From assembly GCA_012728835.1 (NCBI GenBank), contig JAAYEJ010000037.1, forward strand, positions 1 to 47,817: DNA of 47,817 nt, given 5' to 3'. How positions within the stretch are numbered: position 1 is the stretch's first letter; every line of letters begins with the position of its first letter. Made by a program: the position numbers and the translations under genes. The notes under the pieces were generated by a model. That model did no database searches and was not told the origin of the DNA. It saw only the letters and a list, made by a program, of their open reading frames with translations. This DNA is from Candidatus Brocadiaceae bacterium. GTDB lineage: Bacteria > Planctomycetota > Brocadiia > SM23-32. Below are positions 32,343 to 47,004 of the stretch, piece after piece.

Positions 32343-35300
32343 TCAGCTTGCCTCGTGTTGCGATTTCGGTCCGAATATCGATTGCAGAACGACGATGAGC
32401 CCCTCCGCGACCAGGCAGAGGGCCATGGCCAGGGCGGTGCCGGCCAGCAGGCATCCGGCGGCCGGCGGGGCGGCCACGACCGCGGCCACGCCGCCCAGGA
32501 ACGCCAGCGCGGCGAACGGGACGGCCAGCCCCGTGTTCCGCACACGCAGGACCAGGAACACCCCAAACGCTGCGGCCGCCAGGGCCAGTTCGCAGGCCAT
32601 GGCAGCCCCGCCGCTCACCAGGCGGAACCACACCGCCGCAGCCGTGCGGCCCAGAAGGGGCGTGGCGAACCTGTAGGTCGCGCCCCCCGGGTCGGGGAAG
32701 TCGATGGTGATCGGCAGGGCGCCCGTGCTGCGTCCGCCCGGCAACTGCCGCACCAGCGAGCCCGTGCGGAAGCGCAGGGCGGGTTCGCTCGGCGCCGCCA
32801 CCGTTGCCTGGGCCGGCTCCGTTGCGTGTCGCAGGAAGCTCCGCTCAGGGTGGAGTTCGCTGGGGGCGTCCGCCCCGACACCCCCCAGCCCGGCCTGCTC
32901 AGGGATGCGGCCATCGTCTGCGAACATGGCCGTCGCCTCGCGCTTGGCGATCTGCTCGGCGATGAGGTCCAGGTCGTCGTATTCCCCCCGCGACATCCTT
33001 ATGGCGTCGGCCACCCGCATTCCACCCCTCCGCGCTGCGCCGGCCGCATCGGCCTCCTCCTCCCGGTCGGAGAGGCGCCGCATGACCTGTGCCTGGCCGA
33101 GCTGGCTGCGGGCCTGTTCGTGCTGAGGGTCCAGCCGAAGGACCTGGTCCAGGTTGGACTCTGCGGCCTTGTAGTCGCCGGCCTGCAACTGGGCCATGGC
33201 CAGGTTGTAGCGGTCCGTTGCCAGTTGCTTTGTGAGGGCCTGAGGGGGTTCGGCCGCGGCGGGCTGCGCCCCCTTATGGGCCTCGTGCCGTTCGCGCCGT
33301 TCGCGACCGCGCGCGGGCGCGGAGCGTTCGAGCGCGCCGGCCAGGCGGCGGTCGGCGACGTAGGGCGCCAGGTCGGAAAGCTCCTTCGGCGCCCGGCCGT
33401 CGTTGCGCGCCGCGTATTGCTCGCGTGCGGCCAGGATCTGGTCCGCGCCGGCCTCGACGAGCACCTCGTCCAGCACCTGCTGCCTGAGGGCCGGCTCCGG
33501 CCCCGAGGCCCCCGGGGCCGTCGTGGCCGCCGTCTGCCGCTCGAGGCGGACCGCCAGCTCGAGTTCCTCGCCGGTGATCGCGGTCTTGCCGAACGAACTC
33601 GGCACGGTGGCGCCCGGGGCGGACGCGGTCCGTTCGGGCTGCCAGACGGCAATCAGTTCCTCGGTGCGGGGGTTGCGCAGGATCCCGTCGTCGGGATTGG
33701 CGCTGACGCACTGGACGGCGCCGTCCATGTAGAGCACATGAATGCACGCGGCGGCGTCGGGAGGCCAGAGGTAAGCGAGCACCTCAGTGGCCGCTGCGGC
33801 GCCGCTGGGCCGGCGGTAGACGACCTCCTGCCCGTTCCACCGGAGCAGGGATTCGTCCGCCAGGTGTCCGTCGTCCACCAGCGACTGCAGGTCCGGGGGA
33901 TACCGGCCGTCTGCGTTCGCGCGGTAGTGCTCGATCCCCATGAAAAGGTTGCGAAGATTGGACGTAGCCGTAGTCCTGCATGCCATGTAGCGCGCCCGGC
34001 CGAGCGCCGGCATGAGCATCGCCGCCAGGACGACCCCGACGGCCAGGACGGCGAAGACGAGGAGCAGAGGCCTCGAGGGGACGAGCCGGCGGGCGAGGGC
34101 GGGATGCCGCGTGCAGGTCCTGACGAGGCCGTAGCCGACGGCGCACGCGGCGGCCAGAACGCCGATCAGAACGAGCGCCCCGGCATGCCGCCGGAACGGG
34201 CTCCAGACGGCCCTCAGCAGGCGGCCGGTCAGGCTCGGGTCCGGCGGCGGGCCGAGGGGCCTGCCCATGTTGCCGCCCACGGCGGCCAGGCGCACTCCCT
34301 CGGGCACGCGCACGGTCCATTCGAACTGCCCGACGTTCAGGCTCAGGTCCGGGGCCGCCATCGCCTGCCGTGAGAACGGCCTCTGCGCGCTCTGCGGCGT
34401 CGCGTAGATCACGTCGATGGCCGACATGCCGAGCCGCGCGGCGCGTTCGCTCGTGAACAACGGGATCTGCAGCGTGCGCTCCCCCTCGCGGAAGGGCTTG
34501 ATCGGTTCGTTGAACGCGTAGGTGCCGATCAACCGCGCCTTCGGCCCCAGCGCGTCGAGGTCGAGCGTCAGGAACTGCCGGTTCTGGTTCGACACCCAGA
34601 GCCGCAGGTGATTGAGCGTCTCGCGGTTGTCCTGCAGCACCGTGTCGAGCCACGCATACGGGATGCGCGCGCCGAGCAGGATGTCGCTGAGCGCCTGGGC
34701 CTCCACGGCCACGGGCAGGGACCAGTCGGCGCCGCGATAGGTGTAGGCGGCCAGGGCGGGAAGCTCCCGGCGGTACCCCCACGGCGCGTACGACTCCTGC
34801 GGATCGGCGCCCGTGAGCGCACCGGGCAGGGCAGCCGGACGCACCTCCACGTCGGGCCGCGCCTGCAGAAGCAGCAGGGCGCCGTTCTGCTCCCGCGCCC
34901 CCCGCAGCCGGACGGTCCCGACGTCCACGGTGGCCGCCGCCACGTCACTGACGACGTCGTAGTGGACCCGGCAGTCGAAGGTGCCCGTGCGGCGGCCGCG
35001 GAAGCGCACGCGCCACGCGCGCCCCTCCCCCTGGCTGAGGACCACCTCGGGGCCCTCGAAGCGCGGCGAGACGGCGCCGTCCGGCAGGTCGAACACCAGT
35101 TCGCCGACGCCGCCACGCTCGACGGCGATGCGCACGAACGCCGTCGCCTCCACCTGCCCCGCGCGGAAACGCAGCACGTCGAGCACCTCCGCGGCGTAGA
35201 CGGGCCGCACGGTCTCCGTGTGCACGTCCAGCCACCAGCGGCTGTCGAAAAGTTCATACAGGAATCGGTTCTCAAATGCCTTGAGGTAGTCGGGCGCCTG

Positions 35301-37250
35301 CTCGACGCGCAGGGAGTGCAGGTTCGTCTGGCCGTCTTCGAGCGGGCGGACGTCCACCGAGACGTCGGTGCCGACGCCGAACCAGCCCTTCAGGTGGGCG
35401 GCGTCGCGCAGACCGATGCCGCGCAGGCGCACGCGGCCCGGCACGGCCGGCTCGGAGGCCACCAGGCGGAAATGCAGGGCGCCGCTGACGGGCTCGTGCA
35501 GGCGGATGCGCACTTCGGAACCGTCGCCGGGCTGCTCCCAGGACTCGATCCGGGGGCCGTCGACCCGCTCGGCCGTCAGGCCTTCCGGCAGCAGCACGCA
35601 CAGCTCCGCCATGGGCCGCCGGCGGACCTCCAGGGCGAACAGGACCTCGCGCAGGATGCGGTCCTCCTGCACCGTGGCGTGGTCCTGCACGGTGCCGCCG
35701 AGTTCGGCCCGCACCGGGTAGACCTCCACCTGGACGGCCAGCGGCCGGTCGCGGAACGCGTAGGCGGCCTCAGGTTGGCGCCGGCGGAGCCACTCCGGGA
35801 GCTGGTCGGCGGCGACGCGCCAGGGCTCGGCCGGGCCGCCGGTCGTCATCTGCAACTCGGCCGCCGACGAGAGCGCCAGCCGGTAGTCGGCCGCGTCGAC
35901 GCCCGGCATCGTCGGCGGGGCCAGCACCAGGCGCTGCCCGCCATCGGCCAGGGCCTCGGTGAGGATGGTGATCTGGACCGCCTCGGCCGCCGGCCCGAGC
36001 GGCGCGATGCGCAGTCGGGAGCCCTCCTGGGTCCAGTCGGGCCGGCCGCCGGCCGCCCCGACGCTCCGCGCGAGGTGCCCGTCCGGCAGCACCACGACGG
36101 TTTCGGGGGCCGGACGGCCGTAGTCGACGACGATGCGGTGTGTGCCCGCGATCCCGTGGGCGGCCACGGCGTAGTGGGTCTCCACAGCCGCCCGGGCGGA
36201 CGCGCGGATGGGCACGCTCCGCACGACGATGACCGGGTCGGCCCGGCGGAATGCGCACGAGAGCTTGTGCGAGCGGCCCTCGGCGACGGTCTGGGCGGCC
36301 CCGTCCAAGCGTTCGAACGTGAGTTCGTTGCGGCCGGCGGAGACGAGCACGCGGCCCTCGGTGCGTGCCGCGCCGGGGCACAGGAAGACGGGCACGCCCA
36401 CCCGATGAGCGCCTCGGCCGTCGTCCTGCATGGCGCCCGTCAGGCGGCACCGCACTTCAAGGAGTTCCCCGGCAGCGCCCTCGGGCAGGTGGAAGTCGAG
36501 CGTGCTTCCCGAGATACGCCACCGCACGTCGGCCGGGCACTCGACCGTTTGCAGGTCCGCGTCGGATGGCAACCGGACGGACAGCGAGTCCGGCGGGGCC
36601 CCGTCGAAGCGGAACTGCAGCGTCACGGCGTCCCGGAACCCCGGGGGGTCCTCCGCCAGGTCGTGCGTCTGGCCGAACGAGTACGTGGCCACGCGCGCGG
36701 GCGGGCGCGGCGCCCACGTCAGCGCCAGCGGACGCACGCTGAGGGGCACAATCTGGAAGCGGGCGCGCCCGTCGGCCTCGTCCAGGGGCAGCACGAGGGC
36801 ACCGGGACGGGCCGCGAAGTCCACGGCCGGCCCCGGCAGGTCGACCTCGACGGTGCAGTGCACGGCAGGCGGCATGGGCAGGCGGGTCATGAACGCCGTC
36901 CCCGTCCGCGCCCGCACGATGCGCTGCCGCAGACGAACCGTCAGGTGCCCGCGCTGCCCGGGCGGGACCGTGGCGTGCAGGGACTCGATGCCGCGGGTGA
37001 CGACCAGGTCGCCGTGGGCGCCGTCGACGCGCTCCAACGTGTCGACGGGGGACAGAAGGAGGACGTCGGCGGCCGTCCGGCCGGGGTTGTGAAGGTCGAT
37101 CTCGTAGACGATCGAGAGGAACTCGTCTTCGGCGCGGCAGCGCACGTGCGCCTCCAGGCACGGGTTGACAATGGCCGCACGGGCGCCTGTGCCGGCAAGC
37201 GCCAGCAGGAGCGTCGCTGCAAGGACGACAGACCGTCGGAGCGCCTGCAT
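32343..37250 (-). CDS. Giant envelope protein with embedded pilin-like module and TPR
   Basis: The 1635-residue protein has a signal peptide and a beta-rich body with modules like those of the next gene (AYAFRDRPLAVQVEV, about 497). A membrane helix lies near 1020. A pseudopilin-like unit follows at about 1055-1165: hydrophobic helix LLLVFAVLAVGVVLAAMLMPALGRAR, SNLRNLFMGIEHYRANADGRYP, then HVLYMDGAVQCV. This is the order of PVC H-X9-DG pilins but without the prepilin peptidase site. A TPR (about 1345-1380) and two or three C-terminal helices end the protein. It may anchor or scaffold a pilus-like or secretion structure; function is not established. Confidence 0.8.
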   Translation of the reverse strand: MQALRRSVVLAATLLLALAGTGARAAIVNPCLEAHVRCRAEDEFLSIVYEIDLHNPGRTAADVLLLSPVDTLERVDGAHGDLVVTRGIESLHATVPPGQRGHLTVRLRQRIVRARTGTAFMTRLPMPPAVHCTVEVDLPGPAVDFAARPGALVLPLDEADGRARFQIVPLSVRPLALTWAPRPPARVATYSFGQTHDLAEDPPGFRDAVTLQFRFDGAPPDSLSVRLPSDADLQTVECPADVRWRISGSTLDFHLPEGAAGELLEVRCRLTGAMQDDGRGAHRVGVPVFLCPGAARTEGRVLVSAGRNELTFERLDGAAQTVAEGRSHKLSCAFRRADPVIVVRSVPIRASARAAVETHYAVAAHGIAGTHRIVVDYGRPAPETVVVLPDGHLARSVGAAGGRPDWTQEGSRLRIAPLGPAAEAVQITILTEALADGGQRLVLAPPTMPGVDAADYRLALSSAAELQMTTGGPAEPWRVAADQLPEWLRRRQPEAAYAFRDRPLAVQVEVYPVRAELGGTVQDHATVQEDRILREVLFALEVRRRPMAELCVLLPEGLTAERVDGPRIESWEQPGDGSEVRIRLHEPVSGALHFRLVASEPAVPGRVRLRGIGLRDAAHLKGWFGVGTDVSVDVRPLEDGQTNLHSLRVEQAPDYLKAFENRFLYELFDSRWWLDVHTETVRPVYAAEVLDVLRFRAGQVEATAFVRIAVERGGVGELVFDLPDGAVSPRFEGPEVVLSQGEGRAWRVRFRGRRTGTFDCRVHYDVVSDVAAATVDVGTVRLRGAREQNGALLLLQARPDVEVRPAALPGALTGADPQESYAPWGYRRELPALAAYTYRGADWSLPVAVEAQALSDILLGARIPYAWLDTVLQDNRETLNHLRLWVSNQNRQFLTLDLDALGPKARLIGTYAFNEPIKPFREGERTLQIPLFTSERAARLGMSAIDVIYATPQSAQRPFSRQAMAAPDLSLNVGQFEWTVRVPEGVRLAAVGGNMGRPLGPPPDPSLTGRLLRAVWSPFRRHAGALVLIGVLAAACAVGYGLVRTCTRHPALARRLVPSRPLLLVFAVLAVGVVLAAMLMPALGRARYMACRTTATSNLRNLFMGIEHYRANADGRYPPDLQSLVDDGHLADESLLRWNGQEVVYRRPSGAAAATEVLAYLWPPDAAACIHVLYMDGAVQCVSANPDDGILRNPRTEELIAVWQPERTASAPGATVPSSFGKTAITGEELELAVRLERQTAATTAPGASGPEPALRQQVLDEVLVEAGADQILAAREQYAARNDGRAPKELSDLAPYVADRRLAGALERSAPARGRERRERHEAHKGAQPAAAEPPQALTKQLATDRYNLAMAQLQAGDYKAAESNLDQVLRLDPQHEQARSQLGQAQVMRRLSDREEEADAAGAARRGGMRVADAIRMSRGEYDDLDLIAEQIAKREATAMFADDGRIPEQAGLGGVGADAPSELHPERSFLRHATEPAQATVAAPSEPALRFRTGSLVRQLPGGRSTGALPITIDFPDPGGATYRFATPLLGRTAAAVWFRLVSGGAAMACELALAAAAFGVFLVLRVRNTGLAVPFAALAFLGGVAAVVAAPPAAGCLLAGTALAMALCLVAEGLIVVLQSIFGPKSQHEAS

Positions 37251-37364: not shown

Positions 37365-37820
37365 TCACGAGGGCCCCTCCGCAGGCGGCCGTCCCCGGGG
37401 CCGCAGTCGGTTCAGCTTGGCCGTGTCGGCGCGCATCTGCACGGTGCCGCAGGCGGCGCAGACCCACGCCCGGGTGGGCACCAGGCTCTCTTCGAAGACC
37501 CAGAAGCGGGCGTGAAAGGGGCGGAAGTAGAGCCGGCCGGCCCCCTGCAGGCGGCCCTCGACCAGCACGTTATGCCCGCAGGCCGAGCAGCGGCCGGCGG
37601 CGGCCTCGGCCTCCTTGCGGCCGGTCGACTTCTCGATGACCGCGTCCAGCCCCTCGCGGGAGAACCGGGTGGCGCCGCCGATCTTGTAGAACGACAGCAG
37701 CCCCTCCTTCATCCAGCGGTAGATCGTCGGCTCGCTCACGTCCAGATAGGTGGCGGCCTCGCCCACCGTGAACCACTCCGGCATCGCCGGCCTGGCGTCT
37801 GCTCGGTCTTCTGAGGCCAT
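37365..37820 (-). CDS. HTH (excisionase/MerR-type) regulator with zinc ribbon
   Basis: The 151-residue protein has an N-terminal helix-turn-helix of the HTH_17 excisionase type (EWFTVGEAATYLDVSEPTIYRWMKEG, about 15-40, then a wing-like IGGATRFSREGLDAVI). A four-cysteine zinc ribbon follows (C78, C81, C121, C124). It begins with GGGG before ATG 37820, under a perfect-consensus promoter. An AT-rich box (37843-37866) around the promoter could be its own operator. It is 29 nt ahead of the mini-ORF and 114 nt ahead of the giant genes, in the same direction, so it probably regulates them. Phage excisionase function is unlikely as no integrase is near. Confidence 0.82.
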   Translation of the reverse strand: MASEDRADARPAMPEWFTVGEAATYLDVSEPTIYRWMKEGLLSFYKIGGATRFSREGLDAVIEKSTGRKEAEAAAGRCSACGHNVLVEGRLQGAGRLYFRPFHARFWVFEESLVPTRAWVCAACGTVQMRADTAKLNRLRPRGRPPAEGPS

Positions 37821-40444: not shown

Positions 40445-40473
40445 TTGAAAGAGCATGCTTTCAGCGATACCAT
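40445..40473 (+). promoter_or_regulatory. Promoter and possible operator of the restriction island
   Basis: TTGAAA (40445-40450), 17 nt, TACCAT (40468-40473). TGAAAG and CTTTCA (40446-40463, spacer AGCATG) form an inverted repeat across the -35, a plausible operator. The rest of 40301-40514 holds only a 23-codon GTG ORF (40353-40424, with CDRC) that may be a gene remnant. Confidence 0.5.
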
Positions 40474-40514
40474 CTGCGCGAGGGGGGAGGTGTCAACCTG
40501 GGAGATTGGCTGCT

Positions 40515-43328
40515 ATGGCCACGCGCCGTCGTAAGAAGCAAACCAAGGGTTCGGAGGACTACCGGCATCCTGAGTCTACCAGCCCGATGCGGCCGGATGT
40601 GGGCACGCAGGCGCAGTTCCGCAAGAAGAAGCCGCCGGTCACCTACCGATATGACTCCTCCCTCTCGCCGGCGCTGGACTGGGACGGGCAGAACGGGGCG
40701 CGGGAGCTGGGCGAGTGGCTGCTGGCCTGCATCGAGGACGCAGCCGCGCTGGAGCCGCCTCACAAGTTCTCCGAGCCTCGGGTGTTCAAAGGCGGCGACG
40801 GCGCGGTCCTCGTCACAGTCTCCGGCCTCCATGATGCAGTTGAGCAGCTCAAGCGCCTCGGCAAGCCGTTCCTGAACTGGGCGGGCAAGGCGGAGCGGCT
40901 TTCCTTCGATGTGCCGACGCTCCCGCTTTTCGTGCACGAACGCCTCAGCACTCAGGCCATCATCGAGACGCTCAAGTCCCACCGCAAGGCGCCCGCCCTC
41001 AACCAGATGGCGCTCTTCGCCGACCCGCAGCATTCGGTGTCCGACCAGGTGCTCAGGGCCTACGAGTATCGGGACAACTGGGTGAACCGGCTGATCCTGG
41101 GTGACAGTCTCGTGGTGATGAACTCGCTGCTGCACTATGAGGGGCTGGGCGGTCAGGTGCAGATGATCTACATGGACCCCCCGTACGGGGTCAGATTCGG
41201 CAGCAACTTCCAGCCCTTCGTGCGGAGGACCGAGGTCAGGCACAACGACGATGATGACGTCACGCGAGAGCCCGAGATGGTGCAGGCTTACCGAGACACA
41301 TGGGAACTCGGTATTCATTCGTACTTGACTTACATGCGCGACCGCCTGCTTGTCTCCCGCGAGTTGCTCGGCCCCTCGGGCAGCGTGTTCGTTCAGATCA
41401 GTGACGAGAACCTCCACCACCTCAGAGAACTGATGGATGAGGTCTTCGGTGCCGACAACCTGGTAGCGGTGATTGCTTTTACGAAGACCACCGTCGCAAC
41501 ATCCCTCCTGCTCCCCACCGTGTGCGACTTCGTTCTGTGGTACGCGAAGGATCGTTCTGCCGTGAAGTTCAGGAGTCTGTTCCTGCCCAAGAAGCTCGGC
41601 GACGAGGGCGCCACCCGTTACAACTTCCTCGAACTGCCCGATGGGACACGAAGGCGGCTCACCAAGGAAGAACAGGAAGGAAGCGTGGCCGCTCCGGCGA
41701 GCGGAAGACTCTACACCACTACTGATCTTAAGTCGCAGGGGTTCCGGCAGTTCACCACCGTGCCATTCGCATTCCAAGGCCAGGAGTACCATCCGGGCCC
41801 GAATATGAACTGGAAGACAACTCTCCAGGGCCTTGAGCGGCTTGCGGGCCAGAGTCGGATAGTGGTCGAAGGCAACTCGCTTCGCTACCTGAGGTACTTC
41901 GACGATTACCCCGTGAACCCTCTGTCAAACGTGTGGACGGACATCGGAGGCATTCAGAGCCGGACTGACCCAAAGGTCTACGTTGTACAGACGACGAACA
42001 AGGCCATAATGCGTTGCATGCTGATGACAACGGACCCCGGCGACCTGGTTCTCGACCCGACCTGCGGGAGCGGGACAACGGCGTATGTCGCCGAACAGTG
42101 GGGGCGGCGCTGGATTTCGATTGACGTGAGCCGCGTTCCGGCCGCGTTGGCGCGGCAGCGCATCCTGACAGCCACGTTCCCCTGGTACGAACTCCAGGAC
42201 GAGAAACGCGGCCCGGCAGGCGGCTTCGTCTACAAGCGCAAGCAGAACAAGAAGGGCGAGGAGGTGGGCGGCATCGTCCCCCACATCACGCTGAAGTGCA
42301 TTGCCAACAACGAAGAGCCGCAGATGGAGGTCCTTGTCGACCGGCCCGAAGAAGACAAGGCTATCACGCGCGTGGCCGGTCCGTTCGTGGTCGAGGCGAC
42401 GATCCCGACACCGGTGGACTGGGAGGCGGACGGCGAGGAGGACTCCGGCGCGGACATGCAAGAGCGTGGCGCGTTCCTCGACCGCATGCTCGAGGTACTG
42501 CGCAAGAGCCCGGTCCTCCGCCTGGAAGGCAACCGCACCGTGACGCTCAAGAACGTCCGCCCGCCGGCCAAGTCGCTCTCCCTCTCCGCCGAGGCGATGG
42601 TGACGCCTGCCGAACTCGGTCCGCCGAAGACGCTGGAGGACATGCGGGAGCACGCCCTCGACGCGAAGGGAGGGCGGCTGCCGTTCAGCGACAGGCCTGT
42701 CGCCATCCTGTTCGGCCCCGAGAACGGCGCCGTCAGCGAGAAGCTGGTCTACGAGGCGGCGCGCGAGGCGCACGCCAAGGACTACGCGCACATGTTCGTG
42801 ATCGGCTTCGCTGTCCAGCCGAACGCGCGGAAGCTGGTGGACGACTGCGACAAGGCCGTCGGCGTGCCGGCCAGCTACGTGCAGATGACGCCGGACCTTA
42901 TGATGGGCGACCTGTTGAAGAACATGCGGTCGAGCCAGATCTTCAGCGTCTGCGGCCTGCCCGAGATCGCGGTCCGGAAGACCAAAGGCGGCAAGTACCA
43001 GGTGGAACTGCTGGGCCTGGACACCTTTGACCCGGCGACGATGAAGCCTGAGCACCGGCGCGGCGACGACGTGCCGGCGTGGTTCCTGGACACCGACTAC
43101 AACGGCCTCTGCTTCCACGTCTGCCACGCGTTCTTCCCGCTCACGGGCGCGTGGGAGAGCATCAAGAAGGCGCTCAAGGGGACCTACGACGAGAGCGTGT
43201 GGGACCACCTGGCAGGGACGACGAGCGCGGAGTTCGAGCCCGGCGAGCACGGGCAGGTAGCCGTCAAGGTGATTGACGACCGTGGAAACGAGCTGCTGGT
43301 GGTGAAGGACCTGAAGGAGGCAGACTGA
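40515..43328 (+). CDS. Type III-like adenine DNA methyltransferase (Mod)
   Basis: The 937-residue protein has the beta-class motif order: catalytic DPPY at 221-224 ([11 protein letters not shown]) ahead of the SAM-binding motif DPTCGSGTT at 514-522. This is the layout of type III Mod N6-adenine methyltransferases. Upstream and downstream flanks (1-190, 560-937) are longer than in classical Mod (about 600-650 residues) and may hold extra recognition and assembly parts. GGGAG lies 10 nt before the ATG at 40515. It is followed by an ORF6N gene and a Res subunit with overlapping stops and starts, so all three form one operon. G+C appears lower than in flanking genes. Confidence 0.88.
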
Positions 43329-43864
43329 TGGCTGGTGCCACTGGCGGTTTGGTCCCGGTGGAGCGGATTGAGCGGCTGATTCTGGTGGTCCGAGGCCACA
43401 GGGCGATTCTGGACAAAGACCTGGCGGCGCTCTACGGCGTCACGACGGGCAATCTGAACAAGGCCGTCAGCCGGAACATCGAGCGCTTTCCCGAGGACTT
43501 CATGCTGCAACTCACCGCAGAGGAGTTCCGCGACTTGAAGTTCCATTTTGGAACATCAAGTTGGGGAGGCACGCGCAAACCGCCCAGGGCGTTCACCGAA
43601 CAGGGCGTCGCGATGTTGTCCAGCGTGCTGCGCAGCAAACGGGCGGTTCAGGTCAACATTGAGATCATGCGGGCGTTTGTCAGGCTCCGCGGGATGCTGG
43701 CCTCGCATGCGGACCTGGCGCGTCGGTTGATGGCTCTGGAGAAGAAATACGACGCGCAGTTCAAGGTGGTGTTCGACGCCATTCGGCAACTGATGGCCGA
43801 GCCGGAGGCGCCGCGCGGCCAGATAGGGTTCCGTCGTCCCAAAGTGGAGGGGGACAGGCCGTGA
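43328..43864 (+). CDS. ORF6N-domain protein
   Basis: This 178-residue protein has an N-terminal ORF6N domain (about 10-95): [40 protein letters not shown] (key positions R17, D29, L32, Y35), then [11 protein letters not shown] and [14 protein letters not shown]6N domains occur in phage antirepressors and next to restriction genes and probably bind DNA. A coiled region (about 120-160) follows and suggests oligomers. Its ATG overlaps the mod TGA by one base, and its TGA overlaps the res GTG. Sitting inside a mod-res operon suggests it controls expression of the system or forms part of the complex; neither is shown here. Confidence 0.88.
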
Positions 43865-46800
43865 CCAGTTTTGAAGTCCCGACACCCATTCTGAACACCC
43901 CCTTCGAGGAGCCGAAGGAGTACTGGTACATCCGCGAGGGGGAGTCGCCCGAGCAGCGGCCGGGACGGCGGCCGTCGGTGATCTACCCGCCCAGCGACAC
44001 GCCCGTGGCGTGGACCATTGACGAACGTGTATTGCGGCGGTCGGACGAGTTCGCGCCGGGCTACGAGATGGTGTTGGTCAACCTGATCCGCCAGCGGTTG
44101 GCCGCCTGGCGCAAGGACGGATACCCGGGCGTGACGCGCGTCACGAAGGAAATGCTCGACTACTGGCGGCGGGACGGGCGCAAGACGCCGCTGTTCTTCG
44201 CCCAGATTGAGGCGGCGGAGACGGTCATCTTCTTGCGCGAGGCGCGGCAGGACTACCTCCAGGGTGTCAGCGTGCCGCTCGACGAGCCGAACGAGAACCA
44301 GAGGGCGGCCGGGGCGAAGGCGTTCCTGCGGTACGCCCTGAAGATGGCGACCGGCTCGGGCAAGACGACCGTCATGGGGATGCTGGCCGCCTGGAGTATC
44401 CTGAACAAGGTGGCCAGCCGAGCGGACGCGCGCTTTTCCGACGCGGCGCTGGTCGTCTGCCCGAACATTACGATCAAGAACCGCCTGCGCGAGCTCGACC
44501 CGGCCGAGGGCGAGGCCAGCCTTTACCGCACGCGCGACCTGGTGCCGCCGCACCTGATGCCACAGCTCAGCCAGGGCAAGGTGATCGTGACGAACTGGCA
44601 CCTGTTCCAGCTTCTGGAACTCGGGAGCGACGCGAAGGTCAAGAAGGTCGGGGTGCCGGTGCGCACGCTGGAGACAGTGCATATCCGGGACAAGACTACG
44701 ACGGCCCGGGGCTATCGGTACCTGTCGCTCCAGGACTACCAGATGCAGGTCGCCAGGGGGATGCTGACGGTGCGAAAGGAGTACGTGGACAGCGACGGGC
44801 ACGTCGAGAAGGCGGATGTCGAGTCCGTGCGCTACGTCGAGAGTGACACGCACTGGGACCAGCGGGTGCTCGGGCGCGAGATCGGTGGCAAGCAGAACAT
44901 CCTGATCATGAACGACGAGGCACACCACGCCTACCGTATCCGACGGGAAGAGAAGGACGAGGACGAAGAAGACAGCATGCCCGGTGGTGACGAGGACGTC
45001 GAGGACTTCTTCACGGAGGCGACGGTCTGGGTCGAGGGGCTGGACCGCATCCACAAGATGCGCGGCGTCAATCTCTGCGTGGACCTTTCGGCGACGCCGT
45101 ACTTCCTGGGTCGGGTGGGGCAGGAGACTAACAAGCCGTTCCCCTGGGTCGTGAGCGACTTCGGGTTGACCGATTCCATCGAGGCGGGGCTGGTGAAGAT
45201 ACCGCAGCTCGCCCTGCGCGACACGAGCGGCGAAGAGCGGGCGCTCTACTTCAACCTCTGGCGGTACATCCTGGGGCGGCTGACCCCACGGGAGCGTGGC
45301 GGCAAGCGCGGCAGCCCGAAACCGGAGGCGATCTTGAAGCACGCCCATCATCCAGTCGCCATGCTGGGCGGGCAGTGGGAGGAGACACGGGAGGCGTGGC
45401 AGAGGAACGAAGACGATCCCCGGCCTCCGGTGTTCATCGTCGTCTGCAAGAACACGAAGATCGCCGACGCAATCTACCGGTGGCTTGCCAACGATGAGTG
45501 TCCGTCTGGTGTACCGCCCGTCGGGGTGCCGGGCTTCGCCAACGGGAACGGTGAGGTCAACACCATCCGCGTCGACTCCAAGGTGATCCACGAGACGGAC
45601 ACCGAGGGCGCGAAGTCTGACGAGACGAAGTGGATGCGACTGACACTGGACACCGTGGGCAGGCTGGACTGGCCGACGGACCGGCAAGGTCGGCCCATCT
45701 ACCCGGAGGGCTTCGAGGAACTGGCGCGAAAACTCGGCCGACCGCTGCACCCGCCAGGGCGCGACATCCGGTGCATCGTCAGCGTAGGGATGCTGACTGA
45801 AGGATGGGACTCCAAGACGGTCACACACATCATCGGGCTGCGACCGTTCATGTCGCAGCTTCTGTGCGAACAGGTCGTCGGCCGGGGGCTGCGTCGCACG
45901 AACTACGAGGACTTCGACGAGAACGGCAGGCTGACCGAGGAGGTAGCCCAGATACTGGGTGTGCCCTTTGAAGTGGTGCCTTACAAGGCGACCCCCGAGG
46001 GGCCGGTCAAGACACCGAAAAAGCGCAAGCATGTCCACCCGCAGCCGGATCGGGAAAAGTACAAGATCACCTTCCCGCGGGTCGAAGGCTACACGCGCGC
46101 CATACGCAACCGGATCACAGCCGACTGGGGCAGCCTGCCGAAGCTCCGTCTGGACCCGATGCACATACCGCCCGAGGTGCAGCTGAAGGCGAGCGTTCCG
46201 AACAACGAGGGGCGTCCATCGCTCTTCGGGCCGGGGAGGATTGACGAGGTTACGCTCGATGCCTACCGCAAGGGCAGGCGGATGCAGGAGCTGGCTTTCG
46301 AGCTTGCAGCGGCGGTCACGCGAGATGTCACGGGGCAGGGATCGTTTGAGCTGCCGGCGCACGTGCTGTTCCCTCAGGCCCTCCAGATCGTGCAGCGCTT
46401 CCTGCGAGAGTACGTGACGCCCGTGCCGCCGGCAGAACTGATCGACGTGTTCCTGTCTCCGTATTACGGCTGGGTGAGCGATGTGCTGCGGGAGGGCATC
46501 CGGCCCGACACCAGCCAGGGCGACCCCCCAGAGATCCCGCTCTACGAGCAGCATAGGGGGCCGGGGTCGACGGCCGAGGTGGACTTCTGGACGAGCAAAC
46601 CCGTTTGGCCGGTCGAACACAGCCACGTGAACTACGTCGTGGCGGACACGAAGCGGTGGGAGCAATCAGCGGCCTACTTCATCGACACCCATGACGCCGT
46701 CGAGAGATTTGTGAAGAACGCCGGGCTTGGGTTCGCCGTCCCCTACGTCCACAATGGCGAGCCGCACGACTACGTGCCGGACTTCATCATCCGCCTCAAG

Positions 46801-47004
46801 CCGGCTGGCGGCCAGGAACGCTACCTCATCCTGGAGACCAAGGGCTTCGACGAACTGGAAGGGGTGAAGCGCGCTGCAGCCGAGCGATGGGTGCAGGCCG
46901 TCAACGCCGACGGCAAGTACGGCTGGTGGGCATACGCCGTAGTGCACTCACCGCAAGAGACCAGGGAAGTGATCACGAGTGCTGCCAGCAGCAGAGCCGA
47001 CTGA
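43861..47004 (+). CDS. Type III restriction subunit (Res): SF2 translocase with PD-ExK nuclease
   Basis: The 1047-residue protein starts at GTG 43861, overlapping the ORF6N stop. [15 protein letters not shown] (Q-motif-like, about 111-125) is followed by Walker A ATGSGKTT (K168), DEAH box NDEAHHAY (D352-H355), SATPY (about 410-414) and motif [11 protein letters not shown] (about 671). A C-terminal PD-(D/E)xK nuclease shows D974 (VPDFIIRL), E992 and K994 (ILETKG). That is the composition of type III Res, which translocates or diffuses along DNA after recognising unmethylated sites with Mod, then cuts. An acidic stretch [21 protein letters not shown] (about 363-383) is unusual. All motifs look intact. 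Confidence 0.92.

Follow-up and report, generated by a model that had tools for sequence, protein, structure and literature searches.

Pilins are cleaved subunits of filaments, and the locus considered here raises the question of how a stretch with the features of a pilin comes to lie in the interior of a giant membrane protein, and what it may do there. The protein in question, protein A, is encoded in a window (the whole stretch of DNA analysed) of 47,817 nucleotides from a Candidatus Brocadiaceae bacterium (Table 1). Its open reading frame is regarded as real, since the GC content by codon position is of the coding type (0.77/0.52/0.91) and a relative carries an ortholog in an independent assembly (genome G001). 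Pfam and NCBIfam searches with the whole of protein A yield weak TPR matches alone, and no pilin model scores above its cut-off.

Table 1. Coordinates of protein A, its segments, and the adjoining genes in the window (residue numbers refer to protein A).
Feature	Residues	Position	Strand	Basis or remark
Protein A, giant membrane protein	1635 aa	32343..37250	(-)	
Predicted signal peptide	1-25	37176..37250	(-)	hydropathy peak 9-27
Ectodomain, beta-rich, homologous to the protein B ectodomain	26-1015	34206..37175	(-)	hhalign, AlphaFold, Foldseek
TM1	about 1023-1048	34107..34184	(-)	hydropathy peak about 1025-1043, AlphaFold
Short positively charged loop, predicted cytoplasmic	1049-1059	34074..34106	(-)	net charge
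TM2 = pilin alpha-1 (N and C halves)	1060-1112	33915..34073	(-)	HMM, AlphaFold
Pilin head, four strands, VLYMDGAV end	1116-1186	33693..33905	(-)	hhalign, AlphaFold
Helical stretch with YAARNDGRAPKELSDLAPYV	1254-1310	33321..33491	(-)	alignment to G001
TPR-like segment	1341-1405	33036..33230	(-)	Pfam TPR_19, E 8.6e-5, below family cut-off
Conserved GRSTGALPI segment	1506-1543	32622..32735	(-)	63% identity to G001
Three C-terminal TM helices	1544-1625	32376..32621	(-)	hydropathy
Protein B, paralogue of protein A	1266 aa	28530..32330	(-)	12 bp after A
HTH_17 protein upstream of A		37365..37820	(-)	Pfam HTH_17, E 9e-16

The relationship of the embedded module to pilins was examined with profiles. 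A prepilin HMM, based on 29 class III prepilin N-termini from the source genome and related genomes, matches residues 1062-1119 of protein A at E 4.7e-14. A single-sequence search with the protein A segment retrieves geopilin from the PDB (E 7.8e-4), and a profile of the module finds geopilin (1.3e-6), PilA (0.0035), and GspG (0.0056) there, the helix part only being covered. An hhalign comparison set 26 uncut modules against 12 true prepilins from the phylum, with the head also tested apart from the helix. The whole module gives an E-value of 1.8e-35 (score 203.6), the C-terminal half of the helix together with the head 1.6e-28 (score 155.4), and the head only 2.5e-15 (score 78.2), compared with best scores of 18.5, 12.3, and 11.2, respectively, among column-shuffle controls (30 each). 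Alignment to pilins, on which the initial annotation of this DNA had staked its proposal of a pilin-like module, is significant in both the HMM and the hhalign comparison, and as judged by sequence the case for membership of the module among the pilins is strong. A C-terminal NNLKQ match to the prepilin HMM in another protein (L128, E 0.0022) is short and stands without context.

The pilin-derived module comprises residues from about 1060 to about 1186 and lies C-terminal to an extra membrane helix (TM1), which the initial annotation had correctly placed before it. The hydrophobic part of TM2 ends at residue 1080, and P1081 is the equivalent of P22; SNLRN starts at 1097, RYPP at 1116, and HVLYMDGAVQCV covers 1171-1182, the stretch downstream of TM2 reading ...LLLVFAVLAVGVVLAAMLMPALGRARYMACRTTATSNLRNLFMGIEHYRANADGRYPPDLQSLV...EVLAYLWPPDAAACIHVLYMDGAVQCV. 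The elements stand in pilin order over residues 1060-1182, as had been proposed, but the module runs on to about 1186 and does not stop at 1165. With P1081 taken as P22, S1059 falls at position -1, R1060 at +1, and L1064 at +5. The class III signal peptide (Gly or Ala at -1, N-terminal) is absent from the module, which is internal to protein A, and Glu5 of the pilin hydrophobic tract is likewise missing, L1064 standing there; the earlier statement that a prepilin cleavage site is lacking is upheld by these residues. Since neither Gly(-1) nor Glu5 is present, the module should be neither cut nor polymerised as pilins are. Its end differs from the H-X9-DG that had been claimed, being H-X4-DG instead (PPDAAACIHVLYMDG). 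HVLYMDG was rejected as an H-X9-DG motif, as its His is misplaced and TIGR04294 gives no call for protein A; in the source genome, one canonical pilin passes this model. The Pfam model of DUF1559 (PF07596) has no match in protein A but does match a canonical relative, and PF07963/N_methyl (IPR012902), by which modular pilins are defined, matches neither in protein A nor elsewhere on its contig (C37).

In the AlphaFold model of residues 1012-1325, the long alpha-1 helix (about 50 residues, with a hydrophobic first part) is present as one helix of 53 residues at 1060-1112 with high pLDDT, followed by strands at about 1141-1145, 1157-1162, 1169-1174, and 1179-1183; block pLDDT over the module is mostly 82-98. 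A Foldseek search of the PDB with the module model, a query that also contained TM1, extra helices, and disordered parts, gives a best E-value of 0.96, with no pilin among the matches listed. The pilin fold anticipated from the sequence is borne out in part: the predicted architecture is of the pilin type, but no significant structural match in the PDB accompanies it. Further downstream, the helical stretch at 1254-1310 is possibly a decayed second pilin module, to judge from its alignment; the equivalent in G001 scores below significance with the prepilin HMM.

Protein B, the paralogue that follows protein A, has neither the TM1-TM2 hairpin nor the pilin module. The ectodomains of A and B align in hhalign at E 3.7e-75 over about 960 columns, and B contains internal repeats of about 165 aa (self-comparison offset of about 165 columns). 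AlphaFold renders residues 548-1015 of protein A as all-beta, and Foldseek matches the ectodomain model with OST1/ribophorin I (E 8e-7) and with M1 aminopeptidases, with a TM-score of at most 0.31; no sequence-level match of the ectodomain to ribophorin I or M1 N-terminal domains is found. No Pfam family covers the giant paired A/B ectodomains. Relatives of A/B turn up in 101 of the 392 genomes sampled across Planctomycetota but in only 5 of the 75 genomes of the organism's own class, and a contig search with protein A alone as query gave no match. A B-type relative also exists outside Planctomycetota, in Verrucomicrobia bacterium UBA1319 (L143, E 6e-54). The HTH_17 protein encoded upstream of A is possibly its regulator or a gene of the same, presumed operon. 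Elsewhere in the window, a type III methyltransferase gene lies at positions 40455-47004 (+) together with genes for a ResIII protein that matches type III restriction enzymes weakly and for a small ORF6N protein (PADLOC PDC-S05, E 4e-52). The GC content of this stretch is 62-65%, versus about 70-73%, and it is apparently an acquired type III R-M-like island, with the ORF6N gene between its two subunits.

Pilin-derived sequence recurs at the same place in relatives of protein A, to varying extents. A full pilin head was found, among the A orthologs examined, only in the source genome and in G001. The G001 ortholog harbors two tandem modules that are 66% identical, the second without the hydrophobic half, and a third copy resides in a small protein (L047, 2552-3025 (-)) encoded between A and B, its start overlapping the end of A. 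The N-terminus of L047 shows a lipobox-like VASC and then a pilin head, which suggests a putative lipoprotein-anchored pilin domain. In G011, from another family, ILASILMPTMMKSR..GNLRR is kept and there is no head. The stretch from TM2 to GRSxGALPI is variable among A orthologs and mostly linker-like, and the GRSTGALPI segment is kept in distant orthologs as well. The A ortholog of G200 (L113, 1590-7151 (+)) has a FecR-like domain (PF04773, E 3.2e-4, below cut-off) in the position of the pilin module, in keeping with a slot that takes extracytoplasmic modules. In the family f33, A-fragment matches occur in 120/120 genomes searched, some of them being pilins themselves. TM2 matches pilin models (E < 0.05) in 13 of 30 f33 A proteins, with a best E-value of 4.4e-18, a fraction that is biased upwards since the 30 were the top scorers with a query containing TM2; reversed f33 sequences give no match below E 2 with the first pilin model. 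Glu5 and a complete cleavage site are absent from protein A and from every pilin-type TM2 of A orthologs lined up. The mean net charge of the TM1-TM2 loop is +3.2 (34 proteins), versus +0.7 and +0.9 on the other sides, which supports a TM2 that runs from inside to outside in a prepilin-like manner.

The explanation favored here, with a rough probability of 0.55, is that a pilin has been exapted as a fixed N-in/C-out anchor and small extracytoplasmic domain of an A/B envelope scaffold. Protein A belongs to a pair of giant envelope proteins whose family extends across Planctomycetota; TM2 derives from the alpha-1 of a type IV pilin, with a whole pilin head behind it in this lineage. As the helix starts inside the cell behind the charged loop, the module is predicted to insert N-in/C-out like a prepilin. 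Presumably never cut nor extracted, it would remain permanently anchored without polymerisation and would link the large beta array on its N-terminal side with the TPR and membrane part towards the C-terminus; its role would be that of a structural or interaction domain in the envelope scaffold and not that of a filament subunit.

Uncut modules are not confined to the A family. A profile made from them has matches in the source genome at C26 and C75, and its best matches elsewhere in the phylum lie mostly in frames of 730-1030 aa. Secreted DUF3352-like proteins are among the carriers (L185, E 9e-5; L175 is similar by eye). Protein L176 (G152:C39) consists of a zf-HC2 anti-sigma domain, a pilin-type helix as TM, a pilin head, and then vWF_A/VWA, and L048 (G001:C136, 3-6449 (-)) combines an M56/BlaR1 peptidase, an uncut pilin module, and a secretin in one frame of 2149 aa, which runs off the contig end. 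In protein A, the pilin head is directly followed by an NPRTEE tail; among the loci compared, an NPRTGE-like tail is confined to protein A, the lipobox protein, and the M56 protein and may be read as a sign of domain shuffling within the lineage. The presence of uncut pilin pieces in unrelated proteins suggests that pilins are reused as fixed membrane parts and not as fibre subunits. The recurrent use of uncut modules, absent from the initial annotation, is a phylum-wide habit in Planctomycetota, of which protein A is one case. A wider proposal, against which the odds are somewhat tilted, holds that the Planctomycetota pilin serves as a general uncleaved N-in/C-out TM adaptor or sensor shuffled among envelope proteins. 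It would cover the giant envelope proteins, the anti-sigma/vWA protein, the M56-secretin protein, and the lipoprotein alike; if true, a former filament domain has taken on reporting or fixing roles at the inner membrane.

The resemblance of TM2 to pilins of its own lineage bears on another possibility, that of docking to the type IV filament machinery: by mimicking pilins, the pilin helix of protein A would bind pilins, the platform protein, or a pseudopilus and so tether the A/B scaffold. In its favor, the same genome encodes 18 class III prepilin matches above the PF07963 cut-off and a prepilin peptidase. Where an f33 TM2 matches both pilin models, it scores higher with f33 than with Brocadiia-side pilins (10/10), and the TM2 of protein A and of its G001 ortholog both score higher with Brocadiia-side than with f33 pilins (2/2). 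However, one f33 member (L160) matches the Brocadiia-side model only, and gene conversion or repeated capture would lead to lineage tracking of this kind as well, as pilin genes are numerous in the phylum; the pattern reflects either coevolution with the local pilins or such processes acting repeatedly. Docking is further disfavored by the absence from the module of Glu5 and a free N-terminus, both of which take part in the docking of pilin subunits into the filament (PMC10191384), and by the lack of any pilus gene among the ten neighbouring genes scanned; it is thus considered unlikely.

Sequence divergence has to be weighed with regard to a relic, i.e. an old fusion of a pilin gene into A that is now decaying, its head being devoid of a specific function. 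Identity between protein A and its G001 ortholog amounts to 35% in the head, 36% in alpha-1C, and 33% in the linkers. As the module is no more conserved than the linkers, this comparison lends no support to constraint on it and the relic explanation stays alive. The head is absent from G011 and the inspected f33 proteins, the helix is degenerate in many, and many A orthologs, even ones of a single genus, lack a pilin-type helix, so that head and helix are dispensable in many lineages. On the other hand, the heads of protein A and the G001 protein keep the full signature in a gap-poor alignment with a confident model, the module has undergone tandem duplication in G001 with a third copy in the neighbouring gene, and modules recur in unrelated proteins, which renders mere decay doubtful. 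The complete pilin architecture would also suit a true pilin that is freed by an unusual cut and assembled; with S at -1, R at +1, L at +5, a TM helix adjoining on the N-terminal side, and about 450 more residues including three TM helices C-terminal to the module, this is highly improbable. An artefact is barely credible although the sequence comes from a draft assembly of 82 contigs, as an assembly chimera was rejected because of the same arrangement in the independent genome G001 and chance similarity is opposed by hhalign scores far beyond those of column shuffles.

If real and functional, the exapted module shows that a filament subunit can become a fixed membrane domain, offers a way into the study of two giant paired envelope proteins, so far uncharacterised, that are widespread in Planctomycetota, and turns the role of a pilin unable to polymerise into a testable question.

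Among known systems, the type IV prepilins of Planctomycetota (PF07963 N_methyl, DUF1559/SBP_bac_10 PF07596), with DUF1559 paralogue families described in planctomycetes (PMC2754498; PMC10632474), share with the module alpha-1 with P22, the NLRN/NLKQ turn, GxYP, and a head ending in VLxxDGxV. In contrast to them, the module has no class III signal peptide, no Glu5, and no H-X9-DG histidine and is internal, embedded in a membrane protein of 1635 aa. The ectodomain resembles ribophorin I/OST1 and the N-terminal beta domains of M1 aminopeptidases by fold match alone (E 8e-7), at about 10% identity and without a catalytic domain. Geopilin domain 1/PilA-N of Geobacter and GspG are the best sequence relatives of solved structure for the module helix, but are separate cleaved pilins and match the helix only. 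Internal uncut pilin modules are described nowhere in the full-text literature searched, which covers few subscription journals, and their novelty is provisional. Pilin fusions surveyed so far are defined by an N-terminal cleavable motif (PMC8179133), so internal uncuttable modules would be invisible to such surveys. Modular pilins (e.g. PilB of Streptococcus sanguinis) have, like protein A, a pilin module fused to other domains, but they retain a cleaved class III signal peptide at the N-terminus and act as filament subunits (PMC8179133), whereas the module of protein A is internal and uncleavable.
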